DNA of 25,627 nt from a virus. Below are positions 2,780 through 21,305 of the stretch, piece after piece. How positions within the stretch are numbered: position 1 is the first letter of the stretch; the number at the start of each line of letters is the position of its first letter. The translations under genes were made by a program, and so were the position numbers. The stretch spans positions 1 through 25,627 of IMG/VR virus record IMGVR_UViG_3300022602_000380; one strand, written 5' to 3'. The notes beneath the pieces were generated by a model. The model was not told the origin of the DNA. It was given only the letters and a program-made list of their open reading frames with translations, and searched no databases.

Positions 2780-3691
2780 TCAGAATGAACCTGAAGAACC
2801 CCAAATTCCGAGGGGATCAGACCATCCAAATGAATAACGCTCTCTAGCTTTGTAGCGAACGTTACCTGTATCGAAATCACCATCCATGCTGTTTTGCAAG
2901 GGGGTGCGCTCGAAATGCTTCATACCGTTAGGTACATCTGTTGTCAAGAACCAAGCATTAACGTCTGTCAAGAAGTGATTAATGGTGTAACCCTCGGGGA
3001 TTGAACCATTGTTCTCGATAGCGTTGATGTCGTTGTTGTTTGTACCAACACGCAGTTTTGTTTCGAGCAAACGAGTTGCAACGAACTGGAGTGAAGGAGG
3101 AACAATCAACTTCTTGGGTTTGGCAGCGATCAAAAGACCACGCTCATCTGTCCAAGCGGCGATTTGAATAACTGCGCTCTCAAGAGAGGTTTCATTCAAG
3201 TCAGCTTGTGTAGTGGGCGTATTGGAGTTTGTACCACCGTTGACCAATGGGTGAGCTGTGTTAAACAAAGATACGCCGTCACCACCGAGGTAGGTAGAGG
3301 AGAATCCGTTGTTCAATACGGCAGCAGCTTTAACCTGCTTGGTGTAGGCCATCGCACGAGCCAAGCCCTTTGTATAACGAGCAGCAAGGCTGTCATACAA
3401 GTTATCTTCAATCGCTTCTTCAGTGATTGAGAAACCAAGAGCGATGGTTTCGTGGTTATAGCGAGTTGTCCATGCCTCTTGAGCATTGTCATAAGCGATG
3501 GCTGAACCTTCGTTTTTGACTGGTGCTGCAGAGAATCCAGACAATTTGGTCTCTTCTTCAAAAGAACGCTCAGAAGTCTCTGTTTCGTAGATTTCTTTGT
3601 GTTCTTCACCGTAACGAGCATACTCTAAACCGAACAATGCGTTCAATCCGGGGAGCAACTCTTTCAATAGTTGTGCACGTGAAATTGCCAT
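2780..3691 (-). CDS. Major capsid protein, Mu gpT-like
   Basis: 303 aa, a normal length for an HK97-fold major capsid protein of the Mu gpT-like family. Family-like segments are the helical N-terminus LLKELLPGLNALFG, then GFSITEEAIEDNLYD, LNNGFSS, the DGVSLFNTAHPL loop (about 138-149), a TSLESAVIQIAAWTDERGLLI helix, PKKLIVPPSLQFVATRLL, and a C-terminal FERTPLQ...RYKARERYSFGWSDP. It self-assembles into the icosahedral shell, presumably with the upstream scaffold-like protein. Start ATG 3691 has an AGGAG Shine-Dalgarno that overlaps the preceding gene's stop (TAAGGAG). It lies 14 bp behind the accessory gene and is closed by a strong terminator, which fits high expression. Confidence 0.85.
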   Translation of the reverse strand: MAISRAQLLKELLPGLNALFGLEYARYGEEHKEIYETETSERSFEEETKLSGFSAAPVKNEGSAIAYDNAQEAWTTRYNHETIALGFSITEEAIEDNLYDSLAARYTKGLARAMAYTKQVKAAAVLNNGFSSTYLGGDGVSLFNTAHPLVNGGTNSNTPTTQADLNETSLESAVIQIAAWTDERGLLIAAKPKKLIVPPSLQFVATRLLETKLRVGTNNNDINAIENNGSIPEGYTINHFLTDVNAWFLTTDVPNGMKHFERTPLQNSMDGDFDTGNVRYKARERYSFGWSDPLGIWGSSGSF

Positions 3692-3704: not shown

Positions 3705-4319
3705 TTAAACACCGGTGGTGTCAGTATACTGGTGCAAGTTGAACTTGACCAAAAATTCGTAATAGGTTGTAGAAGAGTTATTGGCTGGGCCAGTAGCTGT
3801 ATCAGGAACAACGTCAATTACACGAACTGGCAATGTATTAGTAGTATTAGCGGAAGTACCGTCAATACCATAATATGAATCGCCTGTGGTGGTGTTACCA
3901 GTCGTAACTGAAATAGCTACGTTAGAACCAACGATAGCACGTGTGAATGCTGTTGGAACTGTGGTTTGACCATTGGTAGCCACTACTTTAAACACTGCGT
4001 TAGGATCATCCACAACGTAGGCAAAAGCCATAGCTGTAGTTGTTGATGCTGCTGCAGGGTAGTATTGACCATAAACGGTCTGGCTGCTTGAGTTTACATA
4101 AGAACATCCGACCAACACGCCAACGCTGTCGCCAGAATTGGTAGTTGTTTTAGCAACGATGTAACCATTGGTGTCAACGGAAACAGTGTCGCCATTCAGG
4201 ATGGCCGTAGCATAGCTAGGCGCAACGGGGATTTGACGGATCGCTCCGGCGTAAGGCAAACCATCAAGTCTATTGATTGGTTTAAAACCGTACGTCTTGC
4301 TGACGGTTGGATAAGCCAT
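3705..4319 (-). CDS. Capsid-associated structural protein (decoration-like)
   Basis: 204 aa, Thr/Val/Ala/Ser-rich with almost no Lys or Arg after the first 30 residues. The N-terminus MAYPTVSKTYGFKPINRLDG is followed by a beta-rich domain containing GDTVSVDTNGYIV and SVGVLVGCSYV. Its position directly before the major capsid gene is typical of head decoration or stabilising proteins. Proteins with this N-terminus occur in aquatic phage genomes as structural proteins, by recollection rather than a search. Function in this phage is inferred from position. Confidence 0.7.
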   Translation of the reverse strand: MAYPTVSKTYGFKPINRLDGLPYAGAIRQIPVAPSYATAILNGDTVSVDTNGYIVAKTTTNSGDSVGVLVGCSYVNSSSQTVYGQYYPAAASTTTAMAFAYVVDDPNAVFKVVATNGQTTVPTAFTRAIVGSNVAISVTTGNTTTGDSYYGIDGTSANTTNTLPVRVIDVVPDTATGPANNSSTTYYEFLVKFNLHQYTDTTGV

Positions 4320-13444: not shown

Positions 13445-14830
13445 ATGAGCATTCAAAAAATACAACTCGACTTATTGCGCTTGAAGACTGAAGTGGTTGC
13501 CGGTGCTTACGTTCAATTGAGCGGTCAGGCTCAGGTAGGCAAAACCGCCATGACTCAATGGTTAGCTGAGAGAATCAACTCCGGCATGGTCAGCATTGAT
13601 CAGATCAAGGGCATGGCTCCGGCCCCTGTCAGTACTGCGAAAGGCGCAGACCAAGTGCAGATCGATGCCTTGAATGCTGAGGTCACCAAGCTTGGGATGT
13701 CGATTCAAAGGAACTATAACGATGCAGAGCACAGGATCAACCACGTTCAGCAGTTGACCCAGTCGATCCACAATAAACTACAAAACCTTGAGGGTGACAT
13801 TGTCAAGCTTGACTCAAAGGCCATCAGTCAGACCGTAGGCGATATGATTGCCAATGCATTTGAACCGTTTAAACAGGCGGTGCAGTCTGCCGGTGCTGAG
13901 TCAATCGTTGCTGACATGTCGAGTGTCCGAGTCGTGGATCGCAAATCATGCATGGATCTTTTCGGTGTCGATCTGCCCTTTGACTTTGATGTGTACAACC
14001 ATCCCTGTGCCCCATCGATTGATCCGAATTTTATTTGGACCGAGGACATCCTACGCTCGCTTGCATTCGCTCAGGCAACAGGCTCGAACCTGTGGTTCGG
14101 AGGTGCTAAGGGTACAGGTAAGAGCGAGACCGCTCGGCAGTTCTCCGCTCGCACAGGCAGAGGATTCACTCGCATCAACTTTCACAAGTACTCTACTGCG
14201 TCCGAGTACATCGGTGACGTTGGCCTTGAGAATGGTCAGACCGTGTTTAAACAGGGTGACTTTTTACAGGCTTACACTTGCCCATCAAGCGTGGTGCTAT
14301 TGGATGAGGTGACCAATTGCTCAGAGGGTGAGCTTGCCCCATTGAATGCCTTTCTCGAACCCAACCCACAAGTCAATTATGGGGGCCATGTGTGGCGCAA
14401 GGCATCCGGTGTGATGGTGATCGGCGCAGACAATACCCTGTTGTCCGGTGACTCATCCGGCCTGTATGGGGGAACTAAGGCGATGAATGTTGCATTCGGT
14501 GAGCGCTTTAATTTGGTGATCGAGTTCAAGCATATGCTCAAGCATGTCGAGGTTGACGCAGTTGTCCGTCACACAGGATGCAGACCGGCCCTTGCTGATC
14601 ACGTGATCGATGCGTTCAGGGTCTGCCGTGCTAAGGTTGACACAGGCGATGTGATCGACTCACCATCGATCAGACAGGTTATTGCTTTCATTAAGGCTCT
14701 GCCTTTTATGACCGTAGAGCAAGCTTGGGAGCGCACAGTCTGTGCACGTCAACCACTTGAGTCAGCGACTGCACTCAAGGCCATCGGTCAGGCATCATTG
14801 AATGAAGAAACAATTAAGGGGTTGCTATGA
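13445..14830 (+). CDS. MoxR/CobS-like AAA+ ATPase
   Basis: 461 aa. The AAA+ core spans about 195-370: Walker A GGAKGTGKSE with K226, Walker B VVLLDE (D287, E288), sensor-1 region VMVIGADNT (N330), and a GERFNLVIEF arginine (R354) as possible arginine finger. A helical lid domain follows to the C-terminus. The spacing and the YIGDVGLENGQ...DEVTNCSEGELAPLNAFLEP segment fit the MoxR/CobS branch. Residues 70-150 form a coiled coil. Residues 20-45 contain a second P-loop-like GQAQVGKTA with no matching Walker B. MoxR ATPases act as hexamers with a VWA partner, here the overlapping next gene. Cobaltochelatase itself would need a CobN subunit, which is not seen. Two GTTTAAAC octamers lie in the frame. 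Confidence 0.85.
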   Translation: MSIQKIQLDLLRLKTEVVAGAYVQLSGQAQVGKTAMTQWLAERINSGMVSIDQIKGMAPAPVSTAKGADQVQIDALNAEVTKLGMSIQRNYNDAEHRINHVQQLTQSIHNKLQNLEGDIVKLDSKAISQTVGDMIANAFEPFKQAVQSAGAESIVADMSSVRVVDRKSCMDLFGVDLPFDFDVYNHPCAPSIDPNFIWTEDILRSLAFAQATGSNLWFGGAKGTGKSETARQFSARTGRGFTRINFHKYSTASEYIGDVGLENGQTVFKQGDFLQAYTCPSSVVLLDEVTNCSEGELAPLNAFLEPNPQVNYGGHVWRKASGVMVIGADNTLLSGDSSGLYGGTKAMNVAFGERFNLVIEFKHMLKHVEVDAVVRHTGCRPALADHVIDAFRVCRAKVDTGDVIDSPSIRQVIAFIKALPFMTVEQAWERTVCARQPLESATALKAIGQASLNEETIKGLL

Positions 14831-16431
14831 GAGGTTATCAATTCAAATCAGCGGTCGAGAATACCCTCCGCAAGCTTGAGTCCACATTGGCAAAGCAAAG
14901 GTTCAGGATCGGATCGATCAGTTGGACAGACATTCAGACTGCGAGCATTCGCAGATCGGGCAACATGTACTACATTTCCCTTGCCGATGTAAAGGATCAC
15001 TTGAACATCAAGCCGGTATTGCTCGACAAGTACTTGGGCTTTGTGATCCATGAGTTACTGCATGCGATGTACACCGACTTTGATGCATCGTCTCAAGTGC
15101 CTTACGTGGCGCAGTTGTTCAATGCAGTTGAGGACGTTCGCATCGAGCGCAAGGCCATCGAGAGATCCATCCTCGGCAACGTGGAGCAAGTACTTGCAAA
15201 GACCATCAACATCATGGTTGACAAGGCGATGGATCAGGTCACAGACTGGACAGACCCTTGCCAGTATCCGTTTGCCTTTGCGGTGTACGGTCGCAAGTAT
15301 GCGAGACCAGTACCATTGGCGCAGGGCCTTGAGCCAATTTTCAAGCAAGCGTCTGCGATGATCGACACATGCTCAGACTCAAGAGACGCATTGAAAGTTG
15401 CTGAGTGGATCTTTGACCAATTGAATCAGTTCGAGGATCAAAGCCCCAATGAGCAGAAACAGGATCAGGATCAAGGTCAAGGCGAGGGTGACGGTCAGGG
15501 TGACGGTCAAGGCGAGGGTCAGGGTCAAGAGAGTGCTCAGGAAGGCTCAGATCAATCCACAGGCGCTCAAAGTGGCGAGGGTGAGGGTGAGGGTGCATCC
15601 GATCAGGAAAACGCTCCACAGGCCCGCAAGCCTGATCCACAGAAAGCTAAAGAAGTTGAACCTAAGTGCAAGTTGCCGAGGGGTTGCAGTAATGGGGGAT
15701 CTTATTCAAAGGATGCCACACTCGGAGAGCCAAATTATCACGCAGTCAGCAAGCGTGAGATCGATCTCAATACTCCGATCACACCCAAGTTGCGCTTTGA
15801 GGTTCGCAAGTTGTTCGAGATGTCCGGTGTGGATGAGTTCGAGCACAATCACAAGTTCGGCAGACTCAATTCATCTGCGCTTGCATCGATCACCACAGGC
15901 AAAGTTAATGTGTTTAAACGTCACCGTGAAGAGGGCGGTATTGACTCTGCGGTTGTGATTGCTCTTGATGTTTCGACATCAATGGAGGGCTTACAACTCA
16001 TCAATGCGGTGAAGACAACTTACGCTCTGCTTGAGACCCTTGAGCAAGCCGGTGTGAGCACATCCTTGATAACGTTCGGTGATGAGACATCGGTTGTTAA
16101 GCCTTTCGGTCAAAACATCCTCAAGGCAAAGCAGAGCATTAAAAAGATCGACTGCATGGGCGGTACTAATGACTACTTTGCCGTGCGCTACGGTCATGAA
16201 TTATTGCTCCAACGCAATGAGCAACGTAAGATCCTATTCGTTGTGACGGATGGTCAGGGATGGATTGAATCGGTTCGCAGTCAGGTTCGCTCTGCCGAGG
16301 TGTTGGGCATCAACACCATCGGTGTGGGCATCGGTGTGGATGTGTCGAATGTGTATCGCAACAATGTTCTCATTCGCAACATCAGCGACTTGGGCAACAC
16401 TTCATTCAAGCAAATCAAATTAGTAGCATAA
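14827..16431 (+). CDS. CobT-like protein: HExxH domain plus VWA domain
   Basis: 534 aa; starts on the AAA+ stop (ATGA). N-terminal domain: FVIHELLHAMYTDF (H75, E76, H79) and NAVEDVRIER (E102, D103, E107), the zincin-like HExxH and downstream acidic helix also seen in CobT and related VWA proteins. Residues 203-265 are a Gln/Gly/Glu/Asp-rich disordered linker, as in CobT. The C-terminal VWA domain has a complete MIDAS: DVSTS (D381, S383, S385), GGT (T447) and VVTDG (D475). The pair with the upstream MoxR-like ATPase is the classical ATPase-adaptor set that remodels or inserts metal into a client. The client is unknown; peptidase activity is possible but unproven. GTTTAAAC at 15912. Confidence 0.85.
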   Translation: MRGYQFKSAVENTLRKLESTLAKQRFRIGSISWTDIQTASIRRSGNMYYISLADVKDHLNIKPVLLDKYLGFVIHELLHAMYTDFDASSQVPYVAQLFNAVEDVRIERKAIERSILGNVEQVLAKTINIMVDKAMDQVTDWTDPCQYPFAFAVYGRKYARPVPLAQGLEPIFKQASAMIDTCSDSRDALKVAEWIFDQLNQFEDQSPNEQKQDQDQGQGEGDGQGDGQGEGQGQESAQEGSDQSTGAQSGEGEGEGASDQENAPQARKPDPQKAKEVEPKCKLPRGCSNGGSYSKDATLGEPNYHAVSKREIDLNTPITPKLRFEVRKLFEMSGVDEFEHNHKFGRLNSSALASITTGKVNVFKRHREEGGIDSAVVIALDVSTSMEGLQLINAVKTTYALLETLEQAGVSTSLITFGDETSVVKPFGQNILKAKQSIKKIDCMGGTNDYFAVRYGHELLLQRNEQRKILFVVTDGQGWIESVRSQVRSAEVLGINTIGVGIGVDVSNVYRNNVLIRNISDLGNTSFKQIKLVA

Positions 16432-20373: not shown

Positions 20374-20402
20374 TTAACCCTTTCTATTGCCTGTACGTTA
20401 TC

Positions 20403-20596
20403 GCATCCCTTTAGGGGATGCTCTTTGGTGGACGGACTTAGCCTATCCTAAGCCCATTACTATGCTCTTTGGAGCCACAGACTCGTCAGCCGTTCGACAA
20501 TAGGGCGCTAACTTCGCCACCCGTACCCCTGCTTCCTTGTCTTTCCCGTAGTAGGGGGTATAACATTCATCGCTACTGTTGACCGTCCGATGAATG
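20403..20596. other. Structured non-coding segment
   Basis: Part of a 437-bp gap (20374-20810) without a supportable gene. Seen: hairpin GCATCCC (20403-20409)/GGGATGC (20415-20421); an 11-bp direct repeat ATGCTCTTTGG at 20418 and 20462; CTTAG...CTAAG around 20437-20452; and the perfect 9-bp pair CATTCATCG (20564-20572)/CGATGAATG (20588-20596). On the minus strand it would be the leader of the PD-(D/E)XK gene, downstream of the sRNA terminator. Coding strand and function are unknown. Confidence 0.5.
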
Positions 20597-20611
20597 AACA
20601 TACTGTGGGGC

Positions 20612-20734
20612 AAAAAAAAACCGCTTAGTGATGTACTTTAATAGTGGCCTTATTCAATAACTCCTCGGCATAGGGTATTGAGTAAGGTAAAGTACACCTC
20701 TAAACGGTTTCACCATCGCCCACTACAGCAATGT
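20612..20734 (-). ncRNA. Candidate small structured RNA with own promoter and terminator
   Basis: On the minus strand, RNA starting about 20734 would run some 25 nt before a 91-nt fold (20709 to 20619). The stems from outside in are AACCGTTTAG/CTAAGCGGTT (10 bp, one G-U), a 4x4 internal loop, GTACTTTA/TAAAGTAC (8 bp), a 7-nt bulge on the 3' side, CCTTACTCAATA/TATTGAATAAGG (12 bp, one wobble or mismatch), and a 16-nt loop containing CGAGGAG. The fold runs directly into nine U residues. This is the layout of an independent sRNA ending in an intrinsic terminator. No match to a known RNA family is recognised, and no ORF fits inside. Confidence 0.65.
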
Positions 20735-20740
20735 GTTCGT

Positions 20741-20770
20741 AGTATATCAAGAAATAAAAAAACGTGTCAA
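20741..20770 (-). promoter_or_regulatory. Consensus sigma70 promoter of the candidate sRNA
   Basis: TTGACA (20770-20765, perfect -35), 18 bp, TATACT (20746-20741, 5/6 match to -10), in A/T-rich DNA just downstream of rusA on the same strand. It is the strongest promoter match I see in the window. The only thing it could drive over the next 120 bp is the structured RNA. Confidence 0.75.
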
Positions 20771-20810: not shown

Positions 20811-21281
20811 TTATGGGTTTAAGTTTTCCGTTAGAATCTTTGCAAGGGACGATGCAGTTGCCCTTTTTGACCCACCTAAGTGTGGGTCTTTTTTCGCCTG
20901 TTGCTTTTCTACAATGATTTCTGCCCTAGGATTTTCCCTATCTAAATCCCAATAGATGTGCTTCTCTTTTACCTGCCGGTCATTTGTGTAAACAACACCT
21001 TGCAGCAAATCCAATATAAGACTTTCGTCTAAGTCCGGCCTGCGACTTGCATAATAAATTCTCATTATCACAACCAAATCCCCGCTCATCATGACTGACA
21101 GCGGGCGTACTTGCTGTTTAAACATGTCTGAATAAGTCAAAGCTTTCTGCGATTTGATGAGCCTAGACATGTTCCCAAACTTCACAACTCGCCTTGAATT
21201 TGCTTTACTTGCCGGTTCACCTAAAATAAATAATGAAACTGATTGCAATTCATCTATAATAGTACTATCATTAGAACTCAT
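20811..21281 (-). CDS. rusA: RusA-like Holliday junction resolvase
   Basis: 156 aa from ATG 21281 (AGG 9 bases upstream); a GTG at 21290 is an alternative. FILGEPASKANSRRVV opens the RusA fold. ARRPDLD-type metal site: RPDLDESLILDLLQGVVYTNDRQV supplies D83, D85, D91 and D101. DRENPRAEIIVE closes the domain. RusA dimers cut four-way junctions made by recombination or replication, clearing branches before packaging. The tail after about residue 127 is longer than usual and its DNA includes a plus-strand terminator-like hairpin. GTTTAAAC at 21116 is in the frame. Confidence 0.85.
   Translation of the reverse strand: MSSNDSTIIDELQSVSLFILGEPASKANSRRVVKFGNMSRLIKSQKALTYSDMFKQQVRPLSVMMSGDLVVIMRIYYASRRPDLDESLILDLLQGVVYTNDRQVKEKHIYWDLDRENPRAEIIVEKQQAKKDPHLGGSKRATASSLAKILTENLNP
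20869..20894 (+). terminator. Plus-strand intrinsic terminator inside the rusA tail
   Basis: GACCCAC-CTAAGT-GTGGGTC (20869-20888) is a perfect 7-bp stem followed by six T residues on the plus strand. A weaker AAGGG/CCCTT hairpin with T5 lies just before it. No plus-strand gene lies upstream for 3 kb, so it would end either an antisense or non-coding transcript or read-through from the left. Confidence 0.6.
21255..21260 (+). promoter_or_regulatory. -10 element for the recombination operon
   Basis: A perfect TATAAT lies 46 bp before the start of the Cas4-like gene, inside the N-terminus of divergent rusA. No good -35 is seen at 16-18 bp, so activation or a different sigma/phage factor may be needed. 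The gap between the divergent genes is only 24 bp, so the promoter has to overlap coding DNA. Confidence 0.4.
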
Positions 21282-21305
21282 AACAAACACCTATAAGGAT
21301 TGACG

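Follow-up and report, generated by a model that had tools for sequence, protein, structure and literature searches.

The minus strand of a 25.6-kb virus record (the window, i.e., the whole stretch of DNA that was analyzed) contains, in a noncoding stretch between a rusA-like and a PDDEXK_14 gene, an element that is almost certainly a conserved phage small RNA (sRNA) unit, to judge by its sequence and those of its relatives. It consists of a promoter-like site, a short 5′ hairpin (P1), a long helix (P2) abutted by a predicted pseudoknot with the P1 loop, and a terminal U-run. More than 100 related phage sequences keep this pseudoknotted shape while their sequence changes, and the U-run terminator is present in every member. 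No catalogued RNA family describes the sRNA; its downstream neighbor, RF02932, is already catalogued.

Architecture and genomic setting of the sRNA

The initial annotation of this DNA had proposed a complete sRNA gene beginning with a minus-strand TTGACA-18-TATACT promoter. This site is real: a sigma70-type sequence with 11 of 12 matches and a TG before the −10 box lies at positions 20741 to 20770 (minus strand; −35 TTGACA at 20770 to 20765, 18-nt spacer, −10 TATACT at 20746 to 20741), and it is the top-scoring promoter site on the minus strand across 18 to 25.6 kb. It predicts a transcription start at about position 20734. The stretch of about 25 nt annotated between promoter and stem-loop holds a hairpin that had been missed, P1 (CATTGC/GCGATG; positions 20714 to 20733, minus strand), identified both in the fold and in the relatives.

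P1 is followed by a long hairpin at positions 20711 to 20617. The stem-loop described previously is thus present, but its layout as three stems of 10, 8, and 12 bp is not: P2 is a single 24-bp helix with one mismatch (5′ arm, 20688 to 20711; 3′ arm, 20617 to 20640; minus strand), topped by a separate, variable apical hairpin, P3 (20648 to 20687, minus strand), which contains CGAGGAG. The U9 tract that had been reported directly after the hairpin corresponds to a T9 run at positions 20620 to 20612 on the minus strand, the first four T of which are paired in the hairpin; together with P2 it makes up a predicted intrinsic terminator. The predicted fold of positions 20735 to 20612 has a free energy of −48.9 kcal/mol, compared with −25.4 ± 3.4 for shuffled sequences (z = −6.9), and none of 200 shuffles was as good. 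Within the P1 loop, GTAGTGG (20720 to 20726, minus strand) can pair with CCACTAT (20641 to 20647, minus strand), located immediately 5′ of the 3′ arm of P2. This pairing, of a kind that an ordinary fold is unable to show, constitutes the predicted pseudoknot.

The gene upstream of the sRNA codes for a RusA-like Holliday junction resolvase (20811 to 21290, minus strand), and the first gene downstream codes for a PDDEXK_14 phage endonuclease (19939 to 20373, minus strand), after which come HNH-like and primase-helicase genes. The terminase encoded in the window has its nearest relatives in seawater, lake, and Pelagibacter phages, with 50 to 58% identity. Elsewhere in the window, a strong plus-strand terminator-like hairpin (GACCCACCTAAGTGTGGGTC-TTTTTT; 20869 to 20888) lies inside rusA, at its 3′ end, and a MoxR-like AAA ATPase and a VWA/CobT-like protein are encoded as a pair at positions 13445 to 16431 (plus strand). 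We also considered an origin of replication in this region, but the GC skew minimum near 21 kb gives no independent support for it because it merely tracks the switch of coding strand.

When positions 20735 to 20612 were compared with the Rfam 15 covariance models, no family reached its gathering threshold. The best overlap, MIR6217 (23.4 bits against a threshold of 110), was rejected as a long-hairpin artifact. Similarly, no Rfam family was found at the sRNA position of the relatives in the loci scanned. The earlier statement that no known RNA family is recognizable therefore holds for the sRNA itself, but it had overlooked RF02932, 15 nt downstream, as well as P1, the pseudoknot, and the P1-complementary segment past the terminator.

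Conservation and covariation among phage relatives

Relatives were gathered by scanning viral contigs with a pattern drawn from the conserved RF02932 core and by RusA and PDDEXK_14 protein searches; in them the sRNA anatomy sits behind the same genes as in the window or behind other ones. A geometric scan required P1 to have at least 4 bp, its loop to form a pseudoknot of 6 to 9 bp with the strand abutting the 3′ arm of P2, P2 to span 20 to 25 bp, and a U-run to be present. It first yielded 68 matches in 1.06 Mb and none in reversed sequence. Enlarged to 2.55 Mb of related loci, with a score of at least 58, it yielded 165 matches, 110 of them distinct, as opposed to none in the reversed control, which rules out chance as the source of this geometry. 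The 110 distinct members form about 47 groups at approximately 85% similarity. Their P2 measures 20 to 25 bp, mostly 22 or 23 (24 in the window), and their P3 region varies from 10 to 44 nt. All the features that delimit the new family, namely, P1, a P1-loop pseudoknot abutting P2, a P2 of 20 to 25 bp, the U-run, and the promoter-like site, are found in the window.

The initial annotation had named conserved pairing in a multiple alignment as a test of its proposal, and the pairing proved to be both conserved and covarying. When 16 members were aligned with plain MAFFT, 95.1% of the cells of the structure, including the pseudoknot, were paired, versus 81.8% after shuffling; the P1 helix was 96% paired. 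Without correction for phylogeny, both sides had changed in 18 of 37 pairs, and the covariation score was 0.399, compared with 0.163 ± 0.013 for shuffles and at most 0.110 for slid structures. Among the seven pairs of the pseudoknot, five had changed on both sides. As the geometric scan itself selects for the pseudoknot, we retested this feature on loci picked by the P2 sequence alone. A pseudoknot of at least 6 bp was found at the predicted place in 81 of 83 such loci, which harbor 36 distinct loop strands, whereas swapping hairpins between loci with different loops reduced this proportion to 26%.

R1, a covariance model from which both the window and the pseudoknot had been left out, recovered the window with 40.4 bits (E = 8.9e-8). 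Over 100 loci, mostly ones picked by the geometric scan, it gave 94 matches. The alignment of the relatives, the R1 match, and the pseudoknot in the P2-selected loci thus support the proposal that promoter, fold, and terminator together form a complete sRNA gene. In L102, R1 has a further, weaker match (3760 to 3856, minus strand) that overlaps the sRNA but lies on its complementary strand, as expected because the hairpin is nearly palindromic. Hairpins preceding RF02932 in L023, L036, L062, L085, and L095 include a 7- to 11-nt complement of the P1 loop; they are missed by R1 and have no sequence similarity to the sRNA family, of which they are possible distant members.

The sRNA is present in two uncultured phages from Manatee Spring. 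Acidovorax phage AP1 has an RF02932-like element and no sRNA match. The sRNA was not found in the stretches read of the terminase relatives 023Pt_psg01, DSL-LC04, and HTVC027P and of Planktothrix phage Pag-Yong1, the replication genes lying outside some of these stretches. R1 gave no matches around RF02932 loci in eight cellular genomes, nor did it in 399 genomes from the order to which one of the eight belongs; this negative result is weak because few candidates were scored per genome. In several phages tRNA genes adjoin the sRNA (L146, at about 3250 to 3320 by eye; L109; L116; and L214).

The promoter-like site is conserved as well. It is located just before P1 in 109 of the 110 distinct members, the remaining one having no scorable site, and the best sigma70-type site has on average 9.25 of 12 matches. 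Sixty-five members (about 60%) score at least 9, including 16 with a perfect 12/12; of the 45 below 9, 32 score 8, 12 score 6 or 7, and one is the member without a scorable site. The −10 box usually ends 4 to 8 nt ahead of P1, and thus the RNA would begin at P1. These observations bear on the simplest alternative, that the element is a mere terminator of the rusA operon preceded by a chance promoter match. The position just after rusA and the U-run agree with such a terminator, but the recurrence of the promoter-like site, the covariation of the pseudoknot, and the occurrence of the sRNA behind other genes make this explanation the least credible of all.

The apical loop had been suggested to act as a Shine-Dalgarno mimic or as an antisense target. 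A GAGGAG motif is indeed present in P3 of the window, but it occurs in the apical region of only 1 of the 110 relatives (AGGAG in 4 of 110), the fold predicted for the window engages part of CGAGGAG in base pairs, and the best complement of the loop within the window, 9 nt long, is no better than that of shuffled loops. Regulation by an antisense or mimic sRNA acting through this loop is therefore highly improbable.

Large RNAs and a complementary site behind the terminator

Beyond the terminator, the RF02932 (Betaproteobacteria-1 RNA) model matches positions 20481 to 20597 of the minus strand with 93.2 bits, well above its gathering score of 49.4. The alignment of L002, L008, L013, and others extends RF02932 by about 75 to 80 nt past the Rfam model. 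This conserved 3′ extension, GTGGCTCC...GTCCACCAAAGAGCA, covers positions 20400 to 20480 in the window (minus strand, end approximate), and in it a 3′ GUCCACC pairs with the invariant core GGUGGC. The family thus appears to be truncated in Rfam.

In most relatives the slot behind the terminator is filled by RF02932 or by one of several unnamed RNA-like elements of 200 to 450 nt. By a core-motif test on the 110 distinct members, RF02932 occupies it in the window and in 30 others, and a variant RF02932 core in 6. Another 44 members have a conserved element of about 230 nt (CCGTACTCCGCACGATAGCAAG...GGGGGGTCTTTGGGTGAA; e.g., L104, 3797 to 4068; L098; L101; L108; L116) that has covarying pairs and matches no Rfam family. 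The last 29 were classed as other: L265 is RF02932-like by Rfam, and L183, L199, and L257 are so by eye; L014 has a gene in the slot; and the remainder are further long noncoding sequences. Long noncoding elements of differing sequence occupy the same slot in L147, L148, L158, L161, L171, L182, L190, L217, L231, and L269, with no Rfam match where scanned.

Several loci depart from this arrangement. A long insertion interrupts the 230-nt element in L107 and L118, and L169, L174, L191, L192, and L127 have an extra hairpin (GGAACTAG...CTAGTTCC type) after the terminator, ahead of the complementary site or the start of the large RNA. In L012 and L014, a small nuclease-like gene, judged by eye to resemble PD-(D/E)XK, intervenes between the sRNA and RF02932. 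RF02932 occurs without the sRNA in many phages and prophages, such as Burkholderiales prophages and Acidovorax phage AP1, and the sRNA is also found without RF02932; they are neighboring but separate RNAs. The exact RF02932 core is also present in contigs that, by label only, belong to the Bacteroidota (L280, Hymenobacter; L299, Parabacteroides).

Many members have a complement of the 5′ arm and loop of P1 directly after the U-run, which we call anti-P1; in the window the partly complementary segment is at positions 20598 to 20611 (minus strand). Examples are L235 (GTTGCCGTGGAAA/TTTCCACGGCAAC) and L146 (14/15). The duplex of P1 with its own site has a mean energy of −12.4 kcal/mol, compared with −9.95 ± 0.24 for sites swapped between loci with different loops and −9.4 for shuffled ones. 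The ranks of the own sites over 43 loop classes are nonuniform (Kolmogorov-Smirnov P = 1e-6), although common descent inflates these figures somewhat. A simpler run-length test pointed in the same direction less strongly, and an initial test, which covered 44 members, did so more weakly again. The complementarity is thus a property of the family; the duplex of the window, at −8.8 kcal/mol, is weak and is nevertheless used in its unconstrained fold. In the class with the 230-nt element, anti-P1 overlaps the predicted closing stem (columns 13 to 17 with 252 to 256), and P1 could therefore compete with folding of the large RNA.

The rigid geometry of the sRNA, with a P2 mostly of 22 or 23 bp, an abutting pseudoknot, and a variable apical loop, might instead denote a trans-acting structural RNA whose pseudoknotted rod is the binding site for a protein of the host or the phage, the large RNAs being separate passengers. 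Its own promoter and terminator, and a few copies that do not immediately precede a large RNA (L012 and L014), would fit such a function. However, this explanation accounts neither for the anti-P1 complementarity nor for the tight placement before large RNAs, and we regard it as rather unlikely.

Possible modes of action and related phage RNAs

Among the 110 members, no site with at least 9 of 12 promoter matches is found in the first 140 nt or so past the terminator, and there are few farther on; likewise, on the minus strand of the window, the interval from the terminator to the replication genes is free of promoter-like sites. Therefore, the large RNA would be produced by read-through from the sRNA promoter or from the upstream operon. 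We tentatively propose, at somewhat less than even confidence, that a short RNA and a read-through RNA, linked by a common loop/anti-loop pair, modulate the long RNA, its operon, or both. Transcription would start at P1 and mostly stop at the P2 terminator to yield a compact RNA of about 90 to 130 nt, in which the pseudoknot would lock the P1 loop alongside the 22- to 24-bp rod. A fraction of the transcripts would continue into the large structured RNA (RF02932 in the window) and the replication genes, and in these the 5′ half of P1 would pair instead with anti-P1, just past the terminator. The short RNA may also pair in trans with the anti-P1 of the long RNA. Ordinary attenuation with mutually exclusive hairpins was rejected: anti-P1 is located after the U-run, and P2 and the pseudoknot are compatible with each other. 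We counted against the two-isoform proposal the weak anti-P1 duplex of the window, the 45 members with promoter scores below 9, the many phages and prophages that have RF02932 without the sRNA, and the gene interposed in L012 and L014.

The main rival to this proposal is a promoter-proximal terminator gate, in which the short RNA would be a by-product and transcription could reach the large RNA and the replication genes only with the help of a phage antiterminator or of the nascent RNA itself acting on RNA polymerase. Such a gate would resemble the succession of promoter, short leader RNA, terminator, and operon in lambda pR′-6S RNA-tR′ or HK022 put. Lambda Q provides a precedent for a terminator gate overcome by a phage antiterminator (PMC6606751), and the put RNA of HK022 is a nascent RNA that acts on RNA polymerase so that terminators are ignored (PMC9378689). 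On the minus strand, the top-scoring promoter of the operon indeed precedes the terminator, none is seen between it and the downstream genes, and a constant leader stands ahead of variable downstream sequence. Nevertheless, a by-product has no need of a covarying pseudoknot and a 22- to 24-bp rod, and no antiterminator gene is consistently found upstream in the loci. Neither a Q gene nor a Q site was identified, and sequence and structure are unrelated to those systems as far as tested. We consider a gate of this type conceivable but improbable.

The closest worked-out precedent for the two-isoform proposal is by analogy IsrK of Gifsy-1, with the related CI RNA of phage P4 beside it, although the Rfam isrK model does not match the sRNA. 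From a single promoter, Gifsy-1 produces the short IsrK RNA and a read-through isoform, which pair in trans (PMC4825925). Like the sRNA predicted here, IsrK is a phage sRNA with its own promoter and intrinsic terminator; in Gifsy-1 a longer read-through RNA carries a complementary site (PMC4825925), as it would in this family. However, its target is the orf45-anrP mRNA, next to antQ, whereas the first downstream element in the window is a large noncoding RNA, and the pseudoknotted rod is new. In P4, one segment of CI RNA is complementary to both seqA and seqC of the same leader transcript (PMC4825925). The P1 segment of the sRNA family is similarly complementary to two sites, the 3′ strand of the pseudoknot and, in many members, anti-P1. 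In contrast with CI, which is processed from a longer transcript, the RNA of the window is predicted to be delimited by a promoter and a terminator, and it has no Rfam match. The C4 RNA of phages P1 and P7 resembles CI in that one of its segments is complementary to two sites of the leader transcript.

More broadly, the sRNA might represent the constant 5′ component of a bipartite phage RNA system. In its full form, with the loop switching pairing partners in cis and in trans with several classes of large RNA (RF02932 and undescribed ones) and the large RNAs serving a common phage function near the replication genes, this reading is possible but doubtful. To our knowledge, conserved stand-alone phage RNA genes are few. 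A covarying, pseudoknotted RNA that has a promoter and a terminator of its own and is placed before large RNAs whose sequence changes from phage to phage would point to a layer of RNA-based control, or of RNA machines, in aquatic phages. Such a layer escapes protein annotation, and the structure described here gives the exact base pairs for mutation.
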